Assembly (NCBI GenBank): GCA_000231825.2
Contig: JH720316.1
Coordinates: 502,919-566,918 of the forward strand
Origin: Tetrahymena elliotti 4EA
Lineage: Eukaryota > Ciliophora > Oligohymenophorea > Hymenostomatida > Tetrahymenidae
DNA: 64,000 nt
Reading direction: 5' to 3'
Numbering within the stretch: the stretch's first letter is position 1; every line of letters starts with the position of its first letter. This document shows, piece after piece, positions 2,348-58,008 of the stretch. The notes beneath the pieces were generated by a model. That model worked only from the letters and a program-made list of their open reading frames with translations, had not been told where the DNA came from and did no database searches. A program made the position numbers and the translations under genes.

Positions 2348-5300
2348 ATGTTAAAAAATACGAATTTCAGCAGCAATAAGGGAGACTAAAATTAGAGAAT
2401 AAACTCAAGCTCTGGGAAGGAAAGGAGAGAGGACAACTAGTTGTAGAAAGCTCACGATGAGAATCAATCTGAGTAGAGAAGCAAGTAAAAGAATAGATGT
2501 AGTAGTAGAAAATAGTAGAGCAAGAATCCAAATAATAATAGTAAAAATAATGATGCTACTGCATAATAGATGAAAAAGGAAGAGTAAGAGTTAATAAGCA
2601 ACCAAATAGCCTAGAGTTCTTAAAATTCAAACAAAAAAATGGGCTAATGGTCATCATCGCAATCCACTTGGTAGCCTCCTATCCTTTCATCACCCAGCAG
2701 CTCCTATGCTTCATAGTTTCCTTCAATAAGCGAAGTTACTTAGTTAACTGCCCTTAAACCAAATTCAAATAATTAAGCAATTAATACTAATTTTTTAAGC
2801 TCTCCAAACGAAAATTCATATCAAGACTCTCCTACCTAAAATCAATAGCGCAGCGTTTCTCCTGTGAAAGAAGAGAGAATGTACGACTCAGATGACCAGG
2901 AGAATAACCCAAATCTTGCAAATATATAATAAAGCAGCACAAATAGCAGCTGCTCCATAAACAATCCTTCCAATAGCGATAACATGAATAATAATTAAAT
3001 GAATTAAAGCATCCCAAATAGCAACAGCAACAATAACAGTAGCAATAACAATCACAACAGCAACCATTTCGGTGGTATTTAAAATTATATGAGCACCAAC
3101 AGCAGCCAGAGCAGCCATTTTAATCACATTCACTCACAGCACTCTCATAATTTGCAGCAAATGGGCTGCCCTTTAAGTAGCAGTAGCAATTTGAATAGCA
3201 TGAATAGCAGCAATAACTTGGATTTGAATAACACTAGCACTTGTCATGAAAAATCAAGCTCAAAGCAGAGAAATGTAAATGGAAAAGGCAAAAAATATGG
3301 ATATAAGCATGGATAAATGAATCTCAACTGCGATTAGAACAACTTAAATGGGAAAGAGCAGCACAAGGCCTGCGAAATAAACTGTTCTTAAGCCCTTTGC
3401 TAGAATAATAAAGGCTTAAGAAATCTATCAAACTTACTAAAAAGCTTGAAATTTTCACCTCTACTAGCTTAATAATAGTAAGTAACCTAAAGCCTAATGA
3501 CTTTGCCCTTCGAACTTCACTTCATCATTTGCTCTTATTTAGCCCCCAAAGATATTTACCTCCGTTTGGCTAATGTTAATTAATACTTCCGTAAAATGTC
3601 CAAGGATACTCGTCTTTGGAACTATATTTAGAAGTTTTAGTCTTTAACTATCAATGACAAATATTAGAAGAATACCCCTGTAGTAGAACGCAGATCTAAG
3701 GGAAGGCTCTTTTCAGCAATCTCTCGACTTGATAGCAATCAGGTAAGCATTTATTCCTTCCTTCCTTCGTTTCTTTCCTCCCTCTATCATTCCTTCATTT
3801 ATTCAATCAATAAAATAAATACTACTCATTTTCAAATATGAATGAATCAATAAAAAAATAAGCAAATAAATTCAAAATCATTCTCTCTTTGAATCAATCA
3901 AGCAAGCAATAGATGAACAAAAATGAACTAGCAAGCGAACAAGCAAATAATTCAGTAATGGATGGATCAATAAATAAAAGGAATTAGCAAAAACAGAAAC
4001 ATAGAAAGAAAAGAGTAAAAAATAAATCAACATGTTTTATTTTTAAATTTGTTGAAAAAACCGAAATCGAATCAAATCAAATGAATTTCTTAATTTGTTT
4101 GTTTGTTTGTTTGCTTGCTTCTTTGTTTGATTTAGTTCATTCAAATTTTCGAATCTTTTTTGAACAAAATTAGATTTTTCTAAAGTCGCTTTAAATAAAA
4201 AAATAAATAGTTTATGATTAGAAATGTGAACATCATGATTAGTAATGCAGGATAAGATGATGGAGTACCAACAAGCATTTTGAGAGAACTCAGTTACTTG
4301 TAGACTCTTGATCACCCAAATATTACAAAGTAATTTCTTCATCTATTTTTCAAATGAATTTCACTCAAAAAAATAGATATTAATAATATATCTTTAAATG
4401 AGTAAATTCAAAAACAAACATTTTTTTTGCTCAGTTTAAATTAAAAAATTTAGCTCAAGCTAGGACAAGCACAAAATAAGCTGAATTTAAAAAATTAATT
4501 AAATAAATAAAACAGTTGAAATTTAAATCTTGATTTTATTTAAAAATAGAATTCACGAAGTAGATATCAAAAATGTGCTAGTTTAAATAGTTTCAAAAAG
4601 ACAGGAATACAATTTGAAGGAATATGTTAGAAGATACATCAGTTTAGTTTAGGATGATGCCAAGGGACTTGCTCGTCCTTAATACAAAATTCCATTGATC
4701 AAAGTCAAGGAAATTGCTTTCTAGATCCTCGAAGGCTTAAATTACTTGCACCATCAAGGAATTATGCACAGAAATTTGAAGATTGACAATATTTTGCTTG
4801 ATAAAGATGTTGTAAAAATATCAGATTTTGGTCTATCAAGACTTGTTTCCATCCCTCACATCCCCTACACTCCTGAAGATCCTAAAGAAAGAGAGCGCTC
4901 TGGCAGAGAAGCCCGTCGTCTATGGTACAGAGCTCCTGAGCTGCTCTTGAGAAAAAGCATCTACACCTTCGAAATTGATATGTGGTCTTTTGGCTGTCTT
5001 TTAGCTGAAATCGTATTGAATGAACCACTCTTTGCTGGAGGTAAAAAAATAAATATGAATTTGAACTCAAATAGAATTTTATACAAAAATTAATAAAGCG
5101 CATAGATTATTATTATTATAAAAAACTAACATTTGAAACTTCAAAAGAAAAATTAAAAATCATGCTGGCTCATTAATTAAATAAATAAAAAAATGAAATA
5201 AAAATGAGGAATTTTAATTTGATTTTTAAATTAGCATTTCGTTTGTTGTTTGTTGAGATCAAAATAAAACAGATTTAAAAGAGATATCTTCAAAACAGAA

Positions 5301-7345
5301 AATTTAAATTTGAATGTAAATTTATTAAATTAAGATAAAAATTCTGAGAATCAAAAAAGAATTAATCAATTAAACAATTTAAATTTTTTGGGTAAATAAA
5401 TGAAATCAAATGAATGTGAATGAAAAAAAAATACTGATCAAATAGACAAAAAAGCTAACTAATATATTCCTTCACATTTCATTTAAAAATCAATTAATTA
5501 ATTTATTCATTCAATTATCTATTGATTTATCTAATTATTTTTATTAATACAAAATAGATTCTGAAATAGAACAACTTTTCAAGGTATTCAAATTTATTGG
5601 TTCTCCAGACTCAGAAACTTTGATGTCTATGTGTGACAACCCTGATTACTAGTAGACTTTCCCTAAATGGAAAATGATCAATCTTTCACATATCTGTGAA
5701 CCTAACCAAAGTGATGATTTCAAATAATTAAAGACTACTATGATTCCCAACAGATAGAATGGATTCTAAAAGCTGAAAAATTTAGGAAATGTATTGGGAT
5801 TGCAAGGAATGCAACTGTTGAACTCTCTTCTGCAATTAAATCCTTACAAAAGAATATCCTCCCAAGAAGCCCTTAACCACCCCTTCTTTGATGAAATAAG
5901 ACAATAAAGAACTTTAATGAACATCCCCATGCAAATAGATGAATCCATCAATATAAGCAAGTGCTGCAGTCAAGTAGTACCTTCATGCTATTTCTAGTTT
6001 TCACTCCCCTACTGCCATCTCTCAACAATCTATCAAACCATGGTCAAGCAAGAAAAAACAGAAACATTGATGAAATTTGATTACATGAAAAACCAAACTT
6101 TCATTACTGAAAATATGCGTATAATTCTCCTTGATTGGCTCATTGATGTCAGTGTTCATTTTGAAGCCTAAGACGAAACTCTTCATTACTGCATTTCTTA
6201 CATTGACAGGTAACACAATCAAATCTAGTTCATTACTCTATAAAATAAAGAAGCATTCTTCTTGCATATAAAGATCAATTACATTAATTTAATTTTAAAC
6301 CAAAAAGTTTTTTTTTTACATATTAAATTGATCCAAACAAATTTTTCAAAGAACCATTTTGTTTTTTTAAAATAAATGAAAATCATCTTTCGTATTTGAA
6401 TTCATATTTCTTTATCAAAACAATGCTTTTTTATGGAAATAAAACCTTTATTTTAATGATTTTTTTAAATTAAAAACAAAAAAGAGTTCTTAGTGTAATG
6501 AATATCGAGAGACAAAAATTATAGTTAATTGGTGTTAGCTGCATGAAGATAGCTGAGTAAGAATTTAAATTAATAAAAAAATTAAATTTCTGATTTTGAA
6601 TATTATTAAATAGTGTTTTTAATGAGAGATCAAGAGAATACTACAAGCAAGAAAATGCAATTGAATATGCATACATTACAGCAGAAGAATACAATGCAGC
6701 ATAGCTCATTGCCATGGAAAAAAAGATTCTTAAAACTCTCTCTTTCTAAATGAATACTCCAAATATGATGTATTTTTTAAAAATTATGTGTACCTTATTT
6801 GACACAGACTCATAAGTTTCTGTTATTGCCATGGTAATTCATTCATTAATTTAATTCAATTTTCTTTAAAATTTTAAACTATAGAATATCTATCACTTTA
6901 CATATAGTCTTGAATAACCCCTTTTTTAAATCGTTTTTATTTAGATCTTCATCCCAAATCAACATTTTTAAATTAAATTTATTTTGAAATTATAAAGTTC
7001 CTTGCTGACCTACTACTCATGAGTTATGAAGCTTTGAAATACAAGCCAAGTTTACTAGCCAGTTGCTGCATATTCTTGAGTTTCTTAACCAACGAGAGGG
7101 AATTACCTTCTTAGGAAAAACTAAAAGAAGTTCGCAGCCTCTTAGATCACTATACTATTGATGAATTTAAAGAAGCTGTTGAATTCGTTAGAAAATTCTG
7201 GCATTACTACAGATCTGATCCCACTACTCTCAACTTTGAATCTGTATTTAATAAATATGCCATTGTTTATGGTTTGGAAGCAAGATTAATTAATGCTCCT
7301 ATCATAGAAAAATCTCTACTAAACCAATGGATCTATACAAAATGA
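2348..7345 (+). CDS. F-box / CDK-like pseudokinase / cyclin fusion protein
   Basis: Seven exons: 2348-3742, 4136-4329, 4550-5040, 5558-6209, 6485-6556, 6614-6833, 6998-7345; 1123 residues. The ATG at 2348 is the first after an in-frame TGA at 2330. Residues 1-380 are S/N/Q-rich. An F-box follows at about 386-428 (LPFELHFIICSYLAPKDIYL ... LWNYI). A CDK-like kinase spans about 466-800: PSTAIRE-like PTSILRE (510-516), HRN at 603-605, SDFG (D622), WYRAPE, and a C-lobe ending near HPFF. A two-fold cyclin fold follows (MRIILLDWL near 880; KLQLIG; MEKKILKTL; PSLLA). Exon 4 carries both the kinase C-lobe and the cyclin box without a break. By family, F-boxes recruit SCF ubiquitin ligase through Skp1 and cyclins bind CDKs. 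An SCF receptor scaffolded by an inactive CDK-cyclin pair is my inference. The exon 5 acceptor (AAAAAAG) is the weakest join. Confidence 0.85.
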
Positions 7346-9462: not shown

Positions 9463-11892
9463 ATGTCTTATAGCTTTTTAAAGGAAGTAGACATTTTAAG
9501 TTAAAAGCAATAGGTGGGACCAGAGACTTTTAAGGAATTTGCAATTAAACTGATAGAAAAGATAGTTAAAGAGCCCGAGTATAAGCATTTAATTGGTTAG
9601 GCCTTTTTTGAATTTAATATGATTTTGGATGATCTAAATTAATTTTTAATCGTAAAGCCTGAATTATTAGATGATTTATAAGAAAAAATATTATACATTA
9701 ATGCATATAAGGCTTATTTATAGCTCAGTTAGGAAAATTGCATAAGAACCATTGAAAAAAAAAATTGCTGCTTTAGATATAACTTTTTTTAACTGAGAAA
9801 GAGTGAGGTTCCGCTGAATATTTATTTGCAAATCAACAAAGTAAATTAGTTTTTCTTGTTAAGACTTGGCTTACTTTTAATAAAATCTATCAGCAAATGT
9901 CACAAAAAGGCTTATTTTATAGAATTTATTAATTAAAAAACTGTTTTCATTGACATTCTCAATCAAAATGTTCTGCTCATTAATCCTATTCAAAAGCTTC
10001 TTTTGCAATTTTAAAATTCTTTTAATAACAAAAACTCTCAAGCTAATTCTCCTAAAAATGATATTAAAGGTTAATTGGAAACATTAAAAGTTAAAGATTT
10101 AATCAAGAAGGATTCATTAAGTTTCATTTAAACCTTTTTAAGTGTGATAGGAATTAGAAACTCTGAGTTTAAAGATATGATTGGGGAGTGCAATCTTTTT
10201 TAGCCTTTCCTATAAAGAAATTTCAAAGGGAGGATTAGTAATCCCATGTAATACCTAATAATCTATCTATAAACATTATAAAACAATAGCTCAGAAATCG
10301 ATCTAACTAAAATTGAAATTATGATAATGAATATCCTTTACTAGGATATTAGGTCAACTCAAAAAAAGTATTTAAAATAATGTATCCTGAACCAAACATA
10401 AAAAGAAAATAAATAAATTTCAAACAAGAACTTGGAGAGTAATAGTAATAGTAAAATTAAAGTTGCTCAAAAGTTAGATGTATTTAATATCAAAGAATCA
10501 AAATCGATGAAAAACATAAAATAACCATCACTACTTACTCTCAATTCTCCAAAATAATACAATTCTCTTTAAATAAATTTATAATACTAATAAATATAGA
10601 AGAAGTGTTAAACTGATTTAGAATAGAATTTAAATACTCCAAGATAGAAAGTAGAAAAAGTAAAAAGGTAGTTTAGTTCTATTTAAATTCATAACCAAAC
10701 TTCTCCAAAATAAATACTAAACAAACAGTCACTAACAAGCAGTACATAAAATCTTAATAATGAATAAAAATACTTTAAGTAGAAATCAATAGATGACAAA
10801 TAAAAATCTGATGAGAAAATAAAACATAAATAAGCTGAGGCAAAAGAGCAATAAAAAAATGGATATTAAGAAAAATAGAATTAGAATATTGAGTAGAATC
10901 CAGATGTAGGTTTAAGTAGCACTTTTAAGGAATCTTAGTTAAGTGAATGTGTGAAAGATCAAATTAATTGGTTAAATGGATTTTAAAATAAGCAGATGAC
11001 TCAGAATTAAGCATATTTTTAACTTAAAAAACTAGACAAGATAAAAGAAAAGAGCATTGAATAATGGCAAATGACAGCATGGATGCAGTATAAATACTTT
11101 GGGTTTTTTCAAGAGCCTTTACAAATTATGCTCAGATAAGTAAAAAAATTAGAACAAAATAGCAGCAGTAGTAGCAGTAACTGCCAATAAAATTAAAAAA
11201 TGCCAAATCAATCTGATTAGAATGGTTCTTCTATCCTTGATAAATCATAGTCATACAGCTTGATAGGAATTTTGTATTGGAAATGGAAAAAATATCAAAA
11301 AGCAGTTCAAGCATTTAAAACAGCATTGAAATTTGACAGTAGAAACCAATATGCTTTATATTATTTAGGAAAATTCAACATTGTAATTACATAAAATTAT
11401 GAAGAGGGTAATCGTTATCTTGATCAATTGTTATAAGTTAATCCTTATAATGGGTAATTGATCAGAAAAATAGTTAATTTTAACTAATATTGTCCTGACA
11501 AAAATGAACTATTTTGGTATTATTTATCTATAATTGCAAATCCAAAATGTTCTAAATCGCTTTTAAACATAGCTAAAAAGTATTATGTCATGAGGAATCA
11601 TAAATTGGCCTTATTCTTTTGTGCAAAAGGAATAGATCTTGATAAAAATGAAAAAGAATTTTATTTGGTTATTGGTATGATTTTCAATGTTGAGAGAAGA
11701 CTAGAAAAGAGTCTTAAATATTTAATTAAAGCAGAAAGTCCCAAAAACAAGCAAATTCCTGGCCTCTTATGTGATCTTCATAGGTATTATGGAGATTTGG
11801 AAGAAACAGAAATTAATTTTTACAAAGACCTTAAAGGCATAAATATACTTAAAACCTCACCAACAAACTTCACAAATTTCTTGTATGGTTGA
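9463..11892 (+). CDS. TPR-repeat protein, uncharacterised
   Basis: One uninterrupted frame of 809 residues from ATG 9463 to TGA 11890-11892, with many in-frame TAA and TAG codons read as glutamine. The N-terminal 300 residues are helical and hydrophobic/charged without a motif I recognise. Residues about 320-560 are rich in Q, N, K and S and look disordered. From about 597 to the end there are tetratricopeptide-like helical pairs, for example ILYWKWKKYQKAVQAFKTAL followed by a YALYYLGKF stretch, and later HKLALFFCAKGIDLDKNEKE. TPR repeats are protein-binding scaffolds. The partner and process cannot be told from sequence; such proteins are common in ciliates, including in cilia and basal bodies. 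No signal peptide or membrane segment is evident. The stop is followed directly by AT-rich intergenic DNA. Confidence 0.85.
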
Positions 11893-31112: not shown

Positions 31113-34100
31113 TCATAATTTTAAGAGAGAAGAGTTCACTAGGTTAATAAAGAATTCTTTGTTTAAGATGGGTTTTTGGATGAAAGATTGGATTGAAAGG
31201 TCTTTTAATCTTTCTTCATGTGCTTATTGATTATCCGCAGAAATCATAAATACAACAGGTTGTTTAATTTAGTCTTTAAGATCTCTAACTTTAGCTATAA
31301 ATTCTATACCATCCATGATTGGCATTTAAACATCAGAGAAAATTAAATCATATTGATTTTTTTAGACTTCTTGTAAGGCTTCTTCAGCAAAAATGAATTC
31401 AGAAATTTCAAAATTTGTAAAGCTCTTTAGGTAAGCCTTCAATGCTATGATATTGTAATAAACATCATCAACAATCATAACTTTAATTTTCTTTGTTTCA
31501 TCACATAAACATGGCTGAGAAGGGTTGGTTTTAAATTCATTTATTACTTTGATTCTAGATTGATTTTCTTCTAATTAATGTTATAATTCACTTCCGAAAA
31601 CTAAACTTTCATGATCCTCATGGGTTTACTATTCTTCATTGTTATTAAGAGGAGAAATGTTGCAGGGAGATTCATTCTTTTCATATTAATTTGAACTTAA
31701 ACTTTATGTGGCTCTTGTTTAATAAGTAGATATCATTATTTGAGCTATTTTTTAATATTAATTAATTTTAATAAAATAACAGCTTTGAAAGAATAAATAT
31801 ACCATCAGATGATTATTTTGGCTTAAGACTAAGTTTTACACTGAACATAAATTTTGATCCTTCCTAAAGCTTAGAATCAACTTAGATACTGCTTTTACTT
31901 CCAATTAGACCAATCAATTTTTTACTCATGATTAAGCCAAGACCAATACCTTTAAATAAAATAAATAGAACATTAAAAAATAAATTTAAATATGAAAAAT
32001 TATTTTACCATCAACATTTAAGTGAGTTTTATTGAAAGTTCCTATTTTCGAAAAGAGTCTATTGATGGTATTTTTATCCATTCCTTTTCCTGTGTCAATA
32101 ATTGAAACTTGTAATTCGTTTGTTAAATCATTTTGAACGCATTTTACTTTGATGAATCCAGATTGAGTAAATTGAATAGAATTTTATATAAAATTGAGAA
32201 TAACTTATTTAAAGCGATTTTCATCATTGAATATTTCTAAGGAGCTATGAACTTCTGCTATTAATTGAATGTTTTAAGAGTTAGCTTATTGTTGAACCAA
32301 TCTAAAAATATCAAGAATGGCATTTTTGACATTGAATTATTTGCAATTTAACTTAAGTTTTTGCATTTTAATTTAAGAATAATCAAGAATATCATTAATC
32401 ATGTGCATAAGCAATTGAGAGTTCTTGGATATGATATCCATTTCATTATTGATAGAAGAAGAGAAACTATTTAAATTATTCTTAAAGTTTTAAGAAATAG
32501 ACAAAATACAATTTAAAGGTGTTTTTAAATCATGAGAAATCCTTGCTAGTAACTTATCTTTATAAACGTTCATTTATTTTAAATATTCATTTTTTCTTTG
32601 AATTGTTTCATCTGAAAGAAAAATAAGAGCAGAGAGTTCATTTTAAAAGTAGCAGTGAGAATACCTAACATTAAAATACAAGCTTTTATGCTAAAATAGC
32701 TTATCAGAAGTTTAAACATCCATAATGTCTATTTCTTTGATAGTATCTTTTCTTTTTTAAGACAAAATCATACTACTTTATTTGAATAGTTATTGATAAC
32801 AATCCTCAATTATACTAACACATTTGTCTTTCTTCAAGCTAGCTTCTTTGTCAACAGTAATATTTTTTAAGATCTCATCAAGTTAGGTCATATCCTCTAT
32901 TTTAAATGTCTCAAGGCATGACTGGTTGGCATACAATATGTTGTATTCTTAATTAAAAAAATAAATTTTAGTTTAAAATTATTAAATATAATTACTGGGT
33001 GAAATTCATTCATTCTCTTTTCTTGTTACTTAAAAAAAATTGCATGCTATAGTAAAGAATAAGTAAACAATTTATAATAGAGAGGATGAATTATCATTGA
33101 TTTTTTAATAATCATATTCAATTTTTAATTTTAAATTTCTAATTATCCCAGTTCAACTTTAAGTTTAAAGCAGTATTTTTGGAAATCATTTATTTTAACT
33201 TCTTTTGTATATGGAGAATTAATAGATAATTAAATAATTAACTAGTAAGTTAATTTATTCACTTTCTTGATCTTATTAAATTTAAATTTTTCAGATAAAA
33301 CAAGTGACAAAAAGAGATAATAAAAGTGTATTTGTTCTCTGGGAACTTCATAAAAAACAAACAAACAAACAAAATTTGTAACCTCATGAAAATCTATTTA
33401 TCTATTTGTATTAATCAATGAATCAATTTAAAAGATCACTCCATCAATTAATTAATGATTAAACAGATAAAGCTTCCTTCCAATTGATGAATAAAGAAAT
33501 AAATATTTACCTGTTTGTGATTTAAATTATAGGATAATCATAGAAGAAGGAATTAGTTTGTTAATAATATCATGATGAAGAGAAAGCTGCTGAATTTTGT
33601 AATTGGTTTAAAGAAAATTTTGTTTTTTAGTTTTTTCTGACCAGTAGAACATGAGTGTGATAAATATTTCAAATTGAATTTAGTTAACTATTTCTAAATA
33701 TTTACTAGAATCCCAATAAAAGTAAATAAAAATTGTTTAAGAGCCAATAAATATGATAGCTTTTAGTGTCCATCTTTTTATGTACCAATCCATAAGTAAA
33801 GTGAAAAAGCCTATTAATTATAAATTATTTTATTTTAATACAACATCAATATCATTTCTAACTTTATTATTTACCTAGCGCTCTCACTTGTAGCAAAGAG
33901 GTTTCTTCTCCCAAATTAGTTTTCAAAAGATATAAAACCACAGATATGGAATAAACAATTGAAAATTTAGTCAAATAAATAGCAAACATCTTTTTCTTGT
34001 TTCCTGAAATTATAGTGAAAAAATGATTTTCAATTGAAAAGAATGAAAGAAAAACACTTACTTATTGAGAGAGCAACTAAGGCAATCAAAGATTGGAATA

Positions 34101-56351: not shown

Positions 56352-58008
56352 AATAATAAGTTGTAAATAGCATCAGAAAATAAATCAAGTTTCTATTCTT
56401 TAAATAATAAAATCTAATATATTACTAAATATTTATAATGCATATTTGATTATATTAGACTTCTAATATATTTCTAAAATAATATCTCTAATTCTTTATC
56501 AAATCCTAAATAATACTTTAATCTAAAATATAAAAAGAGGGTTGGACCAATTATCTTCAGTATAAACAAAACTGAATTGGCATTTATTTTTTAAAATAAA
56601 AAATGTAAAATTAAATTGATTCTAAAACAATTTAAAGTTATTTGTAGTCTATTATTTATACTTTAACTTTTAAATAAATAAATTATATTAATTTTATCAG
56701 AAAATATTTGGCCATTAGATTTTACTAATATTTGAAAAATTTTAAGAAAACTAAAATAAAAATCACCAAATATTTGCTCTAAATCACCAAATATTTGCTC
56801 TAAATCACCAAATATTTTCTCTAAATCACCAAATATTTTCTCTAAATCACCAAATATTTTCTCTAAATCACCAAATATTTTCTCTTTTTATAGAATAAAT
56901 AGAGATTAAAAATAGCATATTTGAATTCCATAAAACAATTATTTTACTTACCCCTTCCTTCCCTAGCCTTTTAATGAAAACCTAAAAAAAATTAAATTTT
57001 TCAAACAACAAATTGAAAATACTTGAATTTCGCCTTTAAACATTTAAAAATGATAAATTAAATATTTAGCATTTCTGATAGCTGGCTTTCAATAAAAAGG
57101 AATTAAATAATTATTTAATTTATACTTATAAAATATAATACAAGCTGTATAATTAAATACATCTGATAACTTTCTATATATTTAAATTAATCTTTCTTTA
57201 TTAAATAAATTATTTTAATATATATTTTTGAACTGAAAATTAAGTAATTATTATTTTATTAAGTTCACCTCCCTCCCTCCTCTAATATTAAATATTATTA
57301 CTGAAAAAAAGAATAAAATCATTTAAACAGGGTAATAATAATTTATTTTTTAGTTTGATAAAAAACAGTAAAATAACTTCATATTATAAAAATTTAATCA
57401 ATCAAAAAAACAATTAAAAAAATGATTTATTTATTTTTATTGAAAAAAAAAAACATTTATTTTAATAATAATGCAAAAAATATCAAAAACTTATTTTAGA
57501 TTTAAATCTGACATTTTAAATAATTTTCTTTATTAGATTATTTGGCTATGTTTTTGCATTGGTTTTTGGAGAAATAATTTTGATTGAATTGGATATTTAA
57601 TTGAGTAAAAATATGAACATAAATAAAATGGAGATTATATAATTAATAAATATATTATTACTAAAAAGGATAGGATGAAAATGAGTAATTGAAAATAATC
57701 AATTAATTAAAGAAATGATGTAGAAACAAAGTTAGAGATATTAATACATTTATGCTTACTAATTATATGCTCAGAATTATATTTCAAACAGAAAATACTA
57801 ATTAATTCTAAAGTTAACTATTTTAATCTAAATGCTATGCTTTTTTGCTTTCTTTCTATCATGCTTTTGCTTATAATTTTAGCCAATTTATGTATTAACC
57901 CCCTATTTATGAAAGCAGCTATAAGTTGCTTGCTAACTTTATTTCATTTTTATCTCTGCATACTATTTTATTTTATTGAAAATTGGTAAGACAGCTTTTT
58001 AACTTTTC
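56352..58008. other. AT-rich intergenic region with a 21-nt repeat array
   Basis: Lies between the converging CFAP57 and Tim genes. Apart from the six-unit array at 56760-56885, nothing is recognised. TCTCCCTCCCTC-type pyrimidine tracts occur near 57270. Confidence 0.6.
56760..56885 (+). repeat. Six tandem 21-nt units
   Basis: The unit AAATCACCAAATATTT is followed by GCTCT in the first two copies and by TCTCT in the next four; six head-to-tail copies total 126 nt. No spacers, so this is not CRISPR-like. One plus-strand frame is open through the array and would read KSPNIFS repeatedly, but no start or flanking exon supports translation. It lies about 400 bp 3' of the CFAP57 stop. Confidence 0.9.

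Follow-up and report, generated by a model that had tools for sequence, protein, structure and literature searches.

In the ubiquitin ligase SCF-Skp2 (SCF, Skp1-cullin-F-box) with CDK2-cyclin A, an F-box receptor and a pair of a cyclin-dependent kinase (CDK) and cyclin A belong to one assembly, in which the CDK is catalytically active and each part is a protein of its own. Cyclin F is not known to contain a kinase domain. CDKs that are fused to a cyclin are already known. In the kinome of Phytophthora infestans four CDKs with C-terminal cyclin domains were described, which were confirmed by reverse transcription polymerase chain reaction (RT-PCR) and had an Asp-to-Asn exchange in subdomain VIb (PMC3019232, 2010). 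According to that study, relatives exist in other oomycetes, Paramecium, Tetrahymena thermophila and Theileria annulata, the fusion is absent from P. falciparum, T. gondii and two diatoms, and the cyclin may regulate the stability of the inactive kinase. In 2011 the T. thermophila fusion was presented as CYC13 (EAR91121), the first sighting was credited to Eufolliculina uhligi (1999), and an N-terminal 35% of CYC13 was without known similarity (PMC3143110; both papers are cited from excerpts). Here, a related gene of Tetrahymena elliotti 4EA is analyzed, which encodes an F-box, a CDK-like kinase and a cyclin. It is located at positions 2348-7345 of a stretch of 64,000 nucleotides (contig JH720316.1, positions 502,919 to 566,918 of the forward strand), and the whole stretch is called the window throughout.

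A first-pass annotation had read the three modules within one gene and had stated that no natural protein with this architecture was known. The former was verified with a model of seven exons and with Pfam, while the latter was wrong for the CDK-cyclin part, as the fusions of 2010 (PMC3019232) and CYC13 of 2011 (PMC3143110) demonstrate. As in the fusions of PMC3019232, a CDK is followed by Cyclin_N and Cyclin_C in one chain, and the Asp-to-Asn exchange in subdomain VIb is shared. In contrast, the term F-box occurs zero times in that paper, and its section 12 is without the ERRSKG motif, the Lys-to-Arg exchange and the lengthened loops found here. The excerpts of PMC3143110 describe CYC13 as a cyclin joined to a CDK, without mention of an inactive kinase, and the term F-box has zero occurrences in that paper too. 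The dissimilar 35% of CYC13 would correspond to the 384 residues, out of 1098, that precede the F-box of the window protein and, compared by published description, the window gene is a candidate ortholog or very close relative of CYC13. No report of the F-box, CDK and cyclin architecture was found among the matches listed from the open-licence part of PubMed Central, which was covered mostly by titles and the starts of abstracts. As far as these sources were seen, four points are apparently new, namely the F-box, the full extent to which catalytic motifs are lost, the rebuilt loops that are conserved together, and the dinoflagellate members.

The gene and its relatives

The gene was translated with the ciliate code (table 6, TAA and TAG read as Gln). 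It encodes 1098 amino acids in seven exons, and the sole in-frame TGA is codon 1099 (Table 1). All six introns are of the GT-AG type and A+T-rich, with GC fractions of 0.11-0.25 compared to 0.30-0.37 for the exons. The short exon 5 had not been named in the first-pass annotation. A disordered N-terminus is followed by the F-box, a CDK2-like domain and a two-fold cyclin of the A type. When the translation was searched with the Pfam profiles, F-box-like, Pkinase, Cyclin_N and Cyclin_C were each found above the cut-off, the F-box barely. Pkinase was matched by amino acids 452-779 (143.5 bits), Cyclin_N by 826-957 (105 bits) and Cyclin_C by 959-1071 (39.6 bits).

A protein of T. malaccensis (P0001) has the same architecture and shares 94% identity with the window protein across the 724 residues searched, which supports the exon model. 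Identical residues amounted to 38/42 in the F-box, 336/353 in the linker plus kinase and 254/273 in the cyclin, and of the N-terminal 384 residues 362 were aligned and 272 were identical. The gene looks single in the 90-Mb genome, as a query of 269 residues from exons 3 and 4 yielded 475 bits at exon 4, 103 bits at exon 3 and at most 85 bits elsewhere.

A set of 108 relatives was compiled, comprising P0001-P0106, found among the best 120 of 360 matches, and the added P0224 and P0226; related rows within this set are not independent. By their names they include proteins of the ciliates Tetrahymena, Ichthyophthirius, Stylonychia, Halteria, Paramecium and Blepharisma, and also of the dinoflagellates Effrenium and Polarella, so that the same architecture was found in other ciliates and beyond. 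Precomputed Pfam annotations contained a kinase together with one or more cyclin domains in 105 of the 108 relatives, and F-box, kinase and cyclin together in 57 (56 among P0001-P0106, and P0224). One of the multi-domain relatives, P0008, is an open reading frame from a transcriptome collection (source mmetsp, marked complete). In a profile search 17 of 106 known fusion proteins appeared among the best 120 of 476 matches, which says nothing on absence elsewhere. No row among the matches listed was named as one of the oomycete or Theileria fusions of PMC3019232, and absence there is not absence in nature.

It was considered that adjacent F-box, kinase and cyclin genes might have been misjoined, as the gene model was built here from genomic sequence alone. 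However, the glycine-loop region is situated at the end of exon 1, the exon that also encodes the F-box, which had gone unmentioned in the first-pass annotation. The uninterrupted exon 5558-6209, exactly as had been annotated, encodes the C-lobe of the CDK as far as HPFF and also the beginning of the first cyclin box, without an in-frame TGA. Both module joints are therefore exon-internal, with no stop. In addition, the domain combination recurs in the relatives, including the transcriptome-derived P0008, and the kinase-cyclin joint was confirmed by RT-PCR in P. infestans (PMC3019232). On the grounds of the exon-internal joints and the relatives with the same domain combination this artefact was rejected, and it is regarded as extremely improbable.

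By sequence, the F-box of the window protein is marginal, and the protein qualified as an F-box protein on the curated cut-off of PF12937. In an AlphaFold2 model of P0001 four helices were predicted with high confidence across the F-box region. An F-box segment was present upstream in all 101 relatives with sequence reaching that far, although it was weak in some of them. A profile built from the 57 F-boxes called by Pfam recovered this segment in 44 out of 51 remaining relatives, the other seven being truncated before that point, and gave no match in eight ordinary kinases and one reversed sequence used as controls. Weak scores of 11.5-16 bits were obtained for four Paramecium rows, P0101 and P0103. 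In these proteins the segment is judged to be homologous by its sequence, and its function as an F-box is less sure.

The kinase and cyclin modules

Among solved structures, CDK2 was closest to the kinase by sequence (165 bits). The closest kinase matches are CDKs, a PSTAIRE-like helix and a kinase fold are present, and in structure searches the fold agreed with cyclin-bound CDK2, all of which is consistent with descent from a CDK. These structure searches ranked kinase chains only and barely probed the F-box and cyclin parts. Of the residues expected in an active kinase, the DFG Asp is present in the window protein, while the HRD Asp, the VAIK Lys and the GxGxxG loop are missing, with Asn at amino acid 580 and Arg at amino acid 469 in place of the former two. 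The HRD Asp was found to be Asn in 108/108 relatives, and the VAIK Lys to be Arg in 100 of the 103 relatives with a letter there. At the glycine-loop positions Glu was present in 99 and Arg in 101 of 101 relatives, and the positions of E12 and G13 were Arg in 101/101. In contrast, HRD was present in all of 12 outgroup kinases and in the six kinases of the T. elliotti genome that matched best after the window gene, two of which (L012 and L014) do not seem CDK-like. The T160 position was occupied by T in 107 and by S in 1 of the 108 relatives. The activation segment is eleven residues longer than that of CDK2 in an alignment to CDK2-cyclin A.

Loss of the HRD Asp or change of the VAIK Lys, either alone, usually abolishes or strongly reduces phosphotransfer. 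HRN also occurs in HER3, and the exchange of the VAIK Lys to Arg in KSR, which belong to different kinase groups and are without a fused cyclin or F-box. Because the catalytic motifs are lost across all relatives found, a working kinase was rejected; from its sequence, the kinase looks dead, and has looked so for a long time, in all of these proteins. The previously proposed working, self-contained CDK-cyclin pair was thus not supported; the missing catalytic residues had escaped the first-pass annotation. In P0021, P0028 and P0030, which belong to the ciliate side, the VAIK Lys is retained beside HRN, and therefore the change to Asn may precede the change of the Lys.

The cyclin matched cyclin A2 best (118 bits), followed by cyclin B1 (90), cyclin F (63) and cyclin E1 (48), and the Skp2-cyclin A2 chain 7luo was among its structure-database matches. 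Two cyclin folds are present, and the Lys-Glu pair used in the excerpts of PMC6971155 as a criterion for canonical cyclins is incomplete. In the alignment to CDK2-cyclin A the loop VFNERSREYYKQEN sits at the position of the CDK-contact Lys, where 89 of 102 rows have Val and none has Lys, while the Glu was kept in 102/102. Cyclin F (FBXO1) unites an F-box and a cyclin in one protein, as is the case here, and the cyclin-defining Lys is absent in both; according to PMC6971155, cyclin F is also without the Glu. In contrast, the Glu is invariably kept in the present family, and the match to cyclin A2 is far better than that to cyclin F. The presence of a kinase domain and the better match to cyclin A2 led to the rejection of cyclin F proper. 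P0002, P0005, P0017 and P0026 are named Cyclin-F in UniRef and other members Cyclin-dependent kinase 2 homolog, and the Cyclin-F labels presumably result from automatic naming.

The residues M, L and W of the RxL pocket were each found in 36/36 rows of the ciliate side (P0001-P0035 and P0224, of which 21 are in the kinase tree and the other 15 were assigned by rank alone). Elsewhere the W217 position was W in 3/72.

Conservation was ranked in windows of ten residues, with a penalty for gaps. The top five were RRLWYRAPEL, PEDPKERERS, HRNLKIDNIL, ERSREYYKQE and DGVPTSILRE, and VERRSKGRLF was seventh. PEDPKERERS, ERSREYYKQE and ERRSKG are the family's own. In the alignment to CDK2-cyclin A the conserved windows map to the activation segment, the catalytic loop, the PSTAIRE region, the glycine loop and the loop at the cyclin Lys. 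Because conserved motifs of the family coincide with a cyclin that has lost the Lys and kept the Glu, the mouth of the ATP site, the activation segment and the cyclin interface are read as having been rebuilt together and then frozen.

In the region upstream of the F-box, the pattern [ST]Px[KR] was present in 78/96 rows (shuffled mean 14.5, maximum 23) and RxxL.{2,5}[NDE] in 59/96 rows (shuffled mean 18.5, maximum 29). The 96 rows are those with enough sequence before the F-box, including the window protein, and the shuffling treats related rows as independent. Examples are RGFLQEISLN in ciliates and, on the dinoflagellate side, RRPLQRISFN ahead of SPTKRRK. The second pattern had no match in the window protein or P0001. 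These motifs resemble the destruction boxes (D-boxes) of mitotic cyclins and CDK sites, and their presence in many members suggests that the protein level could be tied to the cell cycle.

Origin and proposed function

In a tree of the kinase domain the window protein and 46 of the 108 relatives, together 47 rows, were separated from 13 other kinases, with a Shimodaira-Hasegawa-like approximate likelihood ratio test (SH-aLRT) value of 99. The 25 non-ciliate rows formed one group (91) and the 22 ciliate rows two groups (90 and 84), the union of which was not resolved. In a tree of the cyclin domain, with 43 of the 108 relatives, the ciliate rows formed one side of a branch (94). The kinase tree is a quick maximum-likelihood tree; both trees are without bootstraps and contain some long branches, and in the cyclin tree the midpoint root coincides with P0104. 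A recent fusion in Tetrahymena only was rejected in view of the relatives in other ciliates and dinoflagellates and of both trees. A single fusion before ciliates and dinoflagellates separated would be the simplest account. By sequence comparison, the family, which is named F-box-pseudo-CDK-cyclin here, is old and constrained.

Two members deserve a comment. P0103 has a database entry under a bee, Hylaeus volcanicus, but clusters with the non-ciliate rows, and 39% of its length aligns to the metagenome protein P0102 with 48% identity; it probably stems from an alveolate associate in the bee assembly. P0089 of Effrenium voratum (1360 amino acids) has more than 500 extra N-terminal residues (PF23411) ahead of the N-terminal block of the family, perhaps owing to a further fusion or to a join in the gene model.

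The idea that the protein acts as an SCF adaptor fits the F-box segment in 101/101 relatives, the helical model of the F-box and the presence of Skp1 at two places in the same genome. On balance, it seems somewhat probable that the protein is an SCF substrate receptor in which a catalytically dead CDK-cyclin pair serves as the substrate-binding body. The cyclin would fold back onto its own pseudo-CDK and keep the latter in an active-like but non-catalytic conformation, the F-box would dock on Skp1-cullin, and the CDK-cyclin body would be the substrate-recognition domain of the ligase. The client could be a protein normally bound by a CDK-cyclin, i.e., an inhibitor, a substrate or a regulator. 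The pseudo-active site, the insert in the activation segment and the cyclin loop would form a constant binding surface, to which the RxL pocket of the cyclin may add in ciliates. We infer Skp1 binding, the fold-back of the cyclin, the type of client and the catalytic inactivity from these comparisons. Among working systems, Skp2 with CDK2-cyclin A, as well as cyclin F, come closest to such a receptor. It is a more tentative proposal, plausible yet short of probable, that the family represents a distinct class of SCF ligases older than the split of ciliates and dinoflagellates, in which a dead CDK is clamped by its fused cyclin, and ATP site, activation segment and cyclin loop make up one docking surface that reads CDK-binding proteins.

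Several observations weigh against a dead receptor of this kind. The F-box of the window protein reached only 16 bits with the plain PF00646, below the cut-off of 20.5, and a genome-wide search with PF00646 listed six places, none of them inside the window. WYRAPE, HRxLKxxN and WSxGC are common to ordinary CDKs and not specific for the family. The RxL pocket is degenerate outside ciliates, so RxL docking is unlikely family-wide, and it was dropped as a general mechanism. Three ciliate-side rows have the VAIK Lys. In addition, the DFG Asp and Asn132 are retained in 108/108 and the catalytic-loop Lys in 107/108 relatives, and the HRD Arg is invariant or nearly so, which leaves room for nucleotide binding or weak activity.

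The latter residues, with which the protein could bind Mg-nucleotide, and the agreement of the fold with cyclin-bound CDK2 would suit an enzyme that uses HRN and ERRSKG, either as an unusual kinase or as a nucleotide-dependent transferase of another kind. However, with the catalytic base lost in every relative, the VAIK Lys changed in nearly all and the glycine loop replaced by Glu and Arg, such an enzyme is quite improbable.

The F-box was the least conserved module, with a conservation value of 0.424 (kinase 0.615, cyclin 0.518), the F-box value being partly lowered by the seven truncated rows. Together with its marginal score in the window protein and the weak scores in Paramecium, P0101 and P0103, this would agree with a decoy or scaffold without a ligase role, in which the dead CDK-cyclin pair acts by titrating or anchoring regulators or substrates of CDKs and the F-box serves the protein's own turnover or is a helix bundle for protein-protein contacts. 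The suggestion of PMC3019232 quoted at the outset, that the cyclin may control how stable the inactive kinase is, points in the same direction. In contrast, an F-box segment in every relative with upstream sequence goes beyond what a decoy needs, and this explanation is deemed rather unlikely.

If the SCF receptor proposal is true, a major protist lineage has brought the roles of Skp2 (or cyclin F), of a CDK and of a cyclin together in a single inherited protein and has abandoned catalysis. Such a protein would represent an obligate CDK-cyclin pair of natural origin, with invariant loops that mark a surface absent from canonical CDKs. CYC13, otherwise known as an odd fusion in the excerpts cited, would gain a testable function in the tractable model Tetrahymena, which would be of relevance to lineages with poorly understood cell-cycle control.

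Features of the gene and of the window

Table 1. Exons, modules and motifs of the F-box, CDK-like kinase and cyclin gene (positions in the window)
Feature	Position (strand)	Amino acids	Content
Exon 1	2348-3742 (+)		Disordered N-terminus (amino acids 1-384), F-box, start of kinase N-lobe; P0001 starts similarly
SPVK	2858-2869 (+)	171-174	CDK-type site in the N-terminus
F-box-like domain	3500-3625 (+)	385-426	PF12937, 24.7 bits, cut-off 24.3
ERRSKG	3686-3703 (+)	447-452	Replaces the GxGxxG glycine loop
Exon 2	4211-4329 (+)		Remaining N-lobe; Arg for VAIK Lys at 4220-4222; PTSILRE helix at 4268-4288
Exon 3	4550-5040 (+)		Region of catalytic loop and activation loop
HRN	4767-4775 (+)	578-580	Replaces HRD; DFG retained at 4824-4832
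Activation segment	4866-4940 (+)	611-635	YTPEDPKERERSGREARRLWYRAPE; lengthened, strongly conserved
Exon 4	5558-6209 (+)		C-lobe of the kinase as far as HPFF (5878-5889), then linker and beginning of first cyclin box, including MRIILLDWL
Exon 5	6485-6556 (+)		Mid-part of first cyclin fold, VLSVMNIERQKLQLIGVSCMKIA; aligns with cyclin A2 and P0001
Exon 6	6614-6833 (+)		End of Cyclin_N, start of Cyclin_C; conserved lengthened loop VFNERSREYYKQEN at 6615-6656
Exon 7	6998-7345 (+)		Cyclin_C and TGA stop

No hits were obtained when the window was scanned for Rfam families and tRNAs. Upstream of the gene, a direct repeat was detected at 42-317 and 1643-1892, with a spacing of about 1.6 kb and three pieces of 56-103 nucleotides that are 77-91% identical. 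At 56760-56885 six tandem copies of 21 bp (99% matches) are located, which on the minus strand encode IFGDLE(K/Q) repeats in an open frame that is maybe not a gene. Downstream of the gene a long open frame at 9463-11889 (+) contains a tetratricopeptide repeat (TPR) above the cut-off, and at 31929-33005 (-) a histidine-kinase core is encoded in a ciliate reading frame, with HisKA and HATPase_c both above the cut-off.

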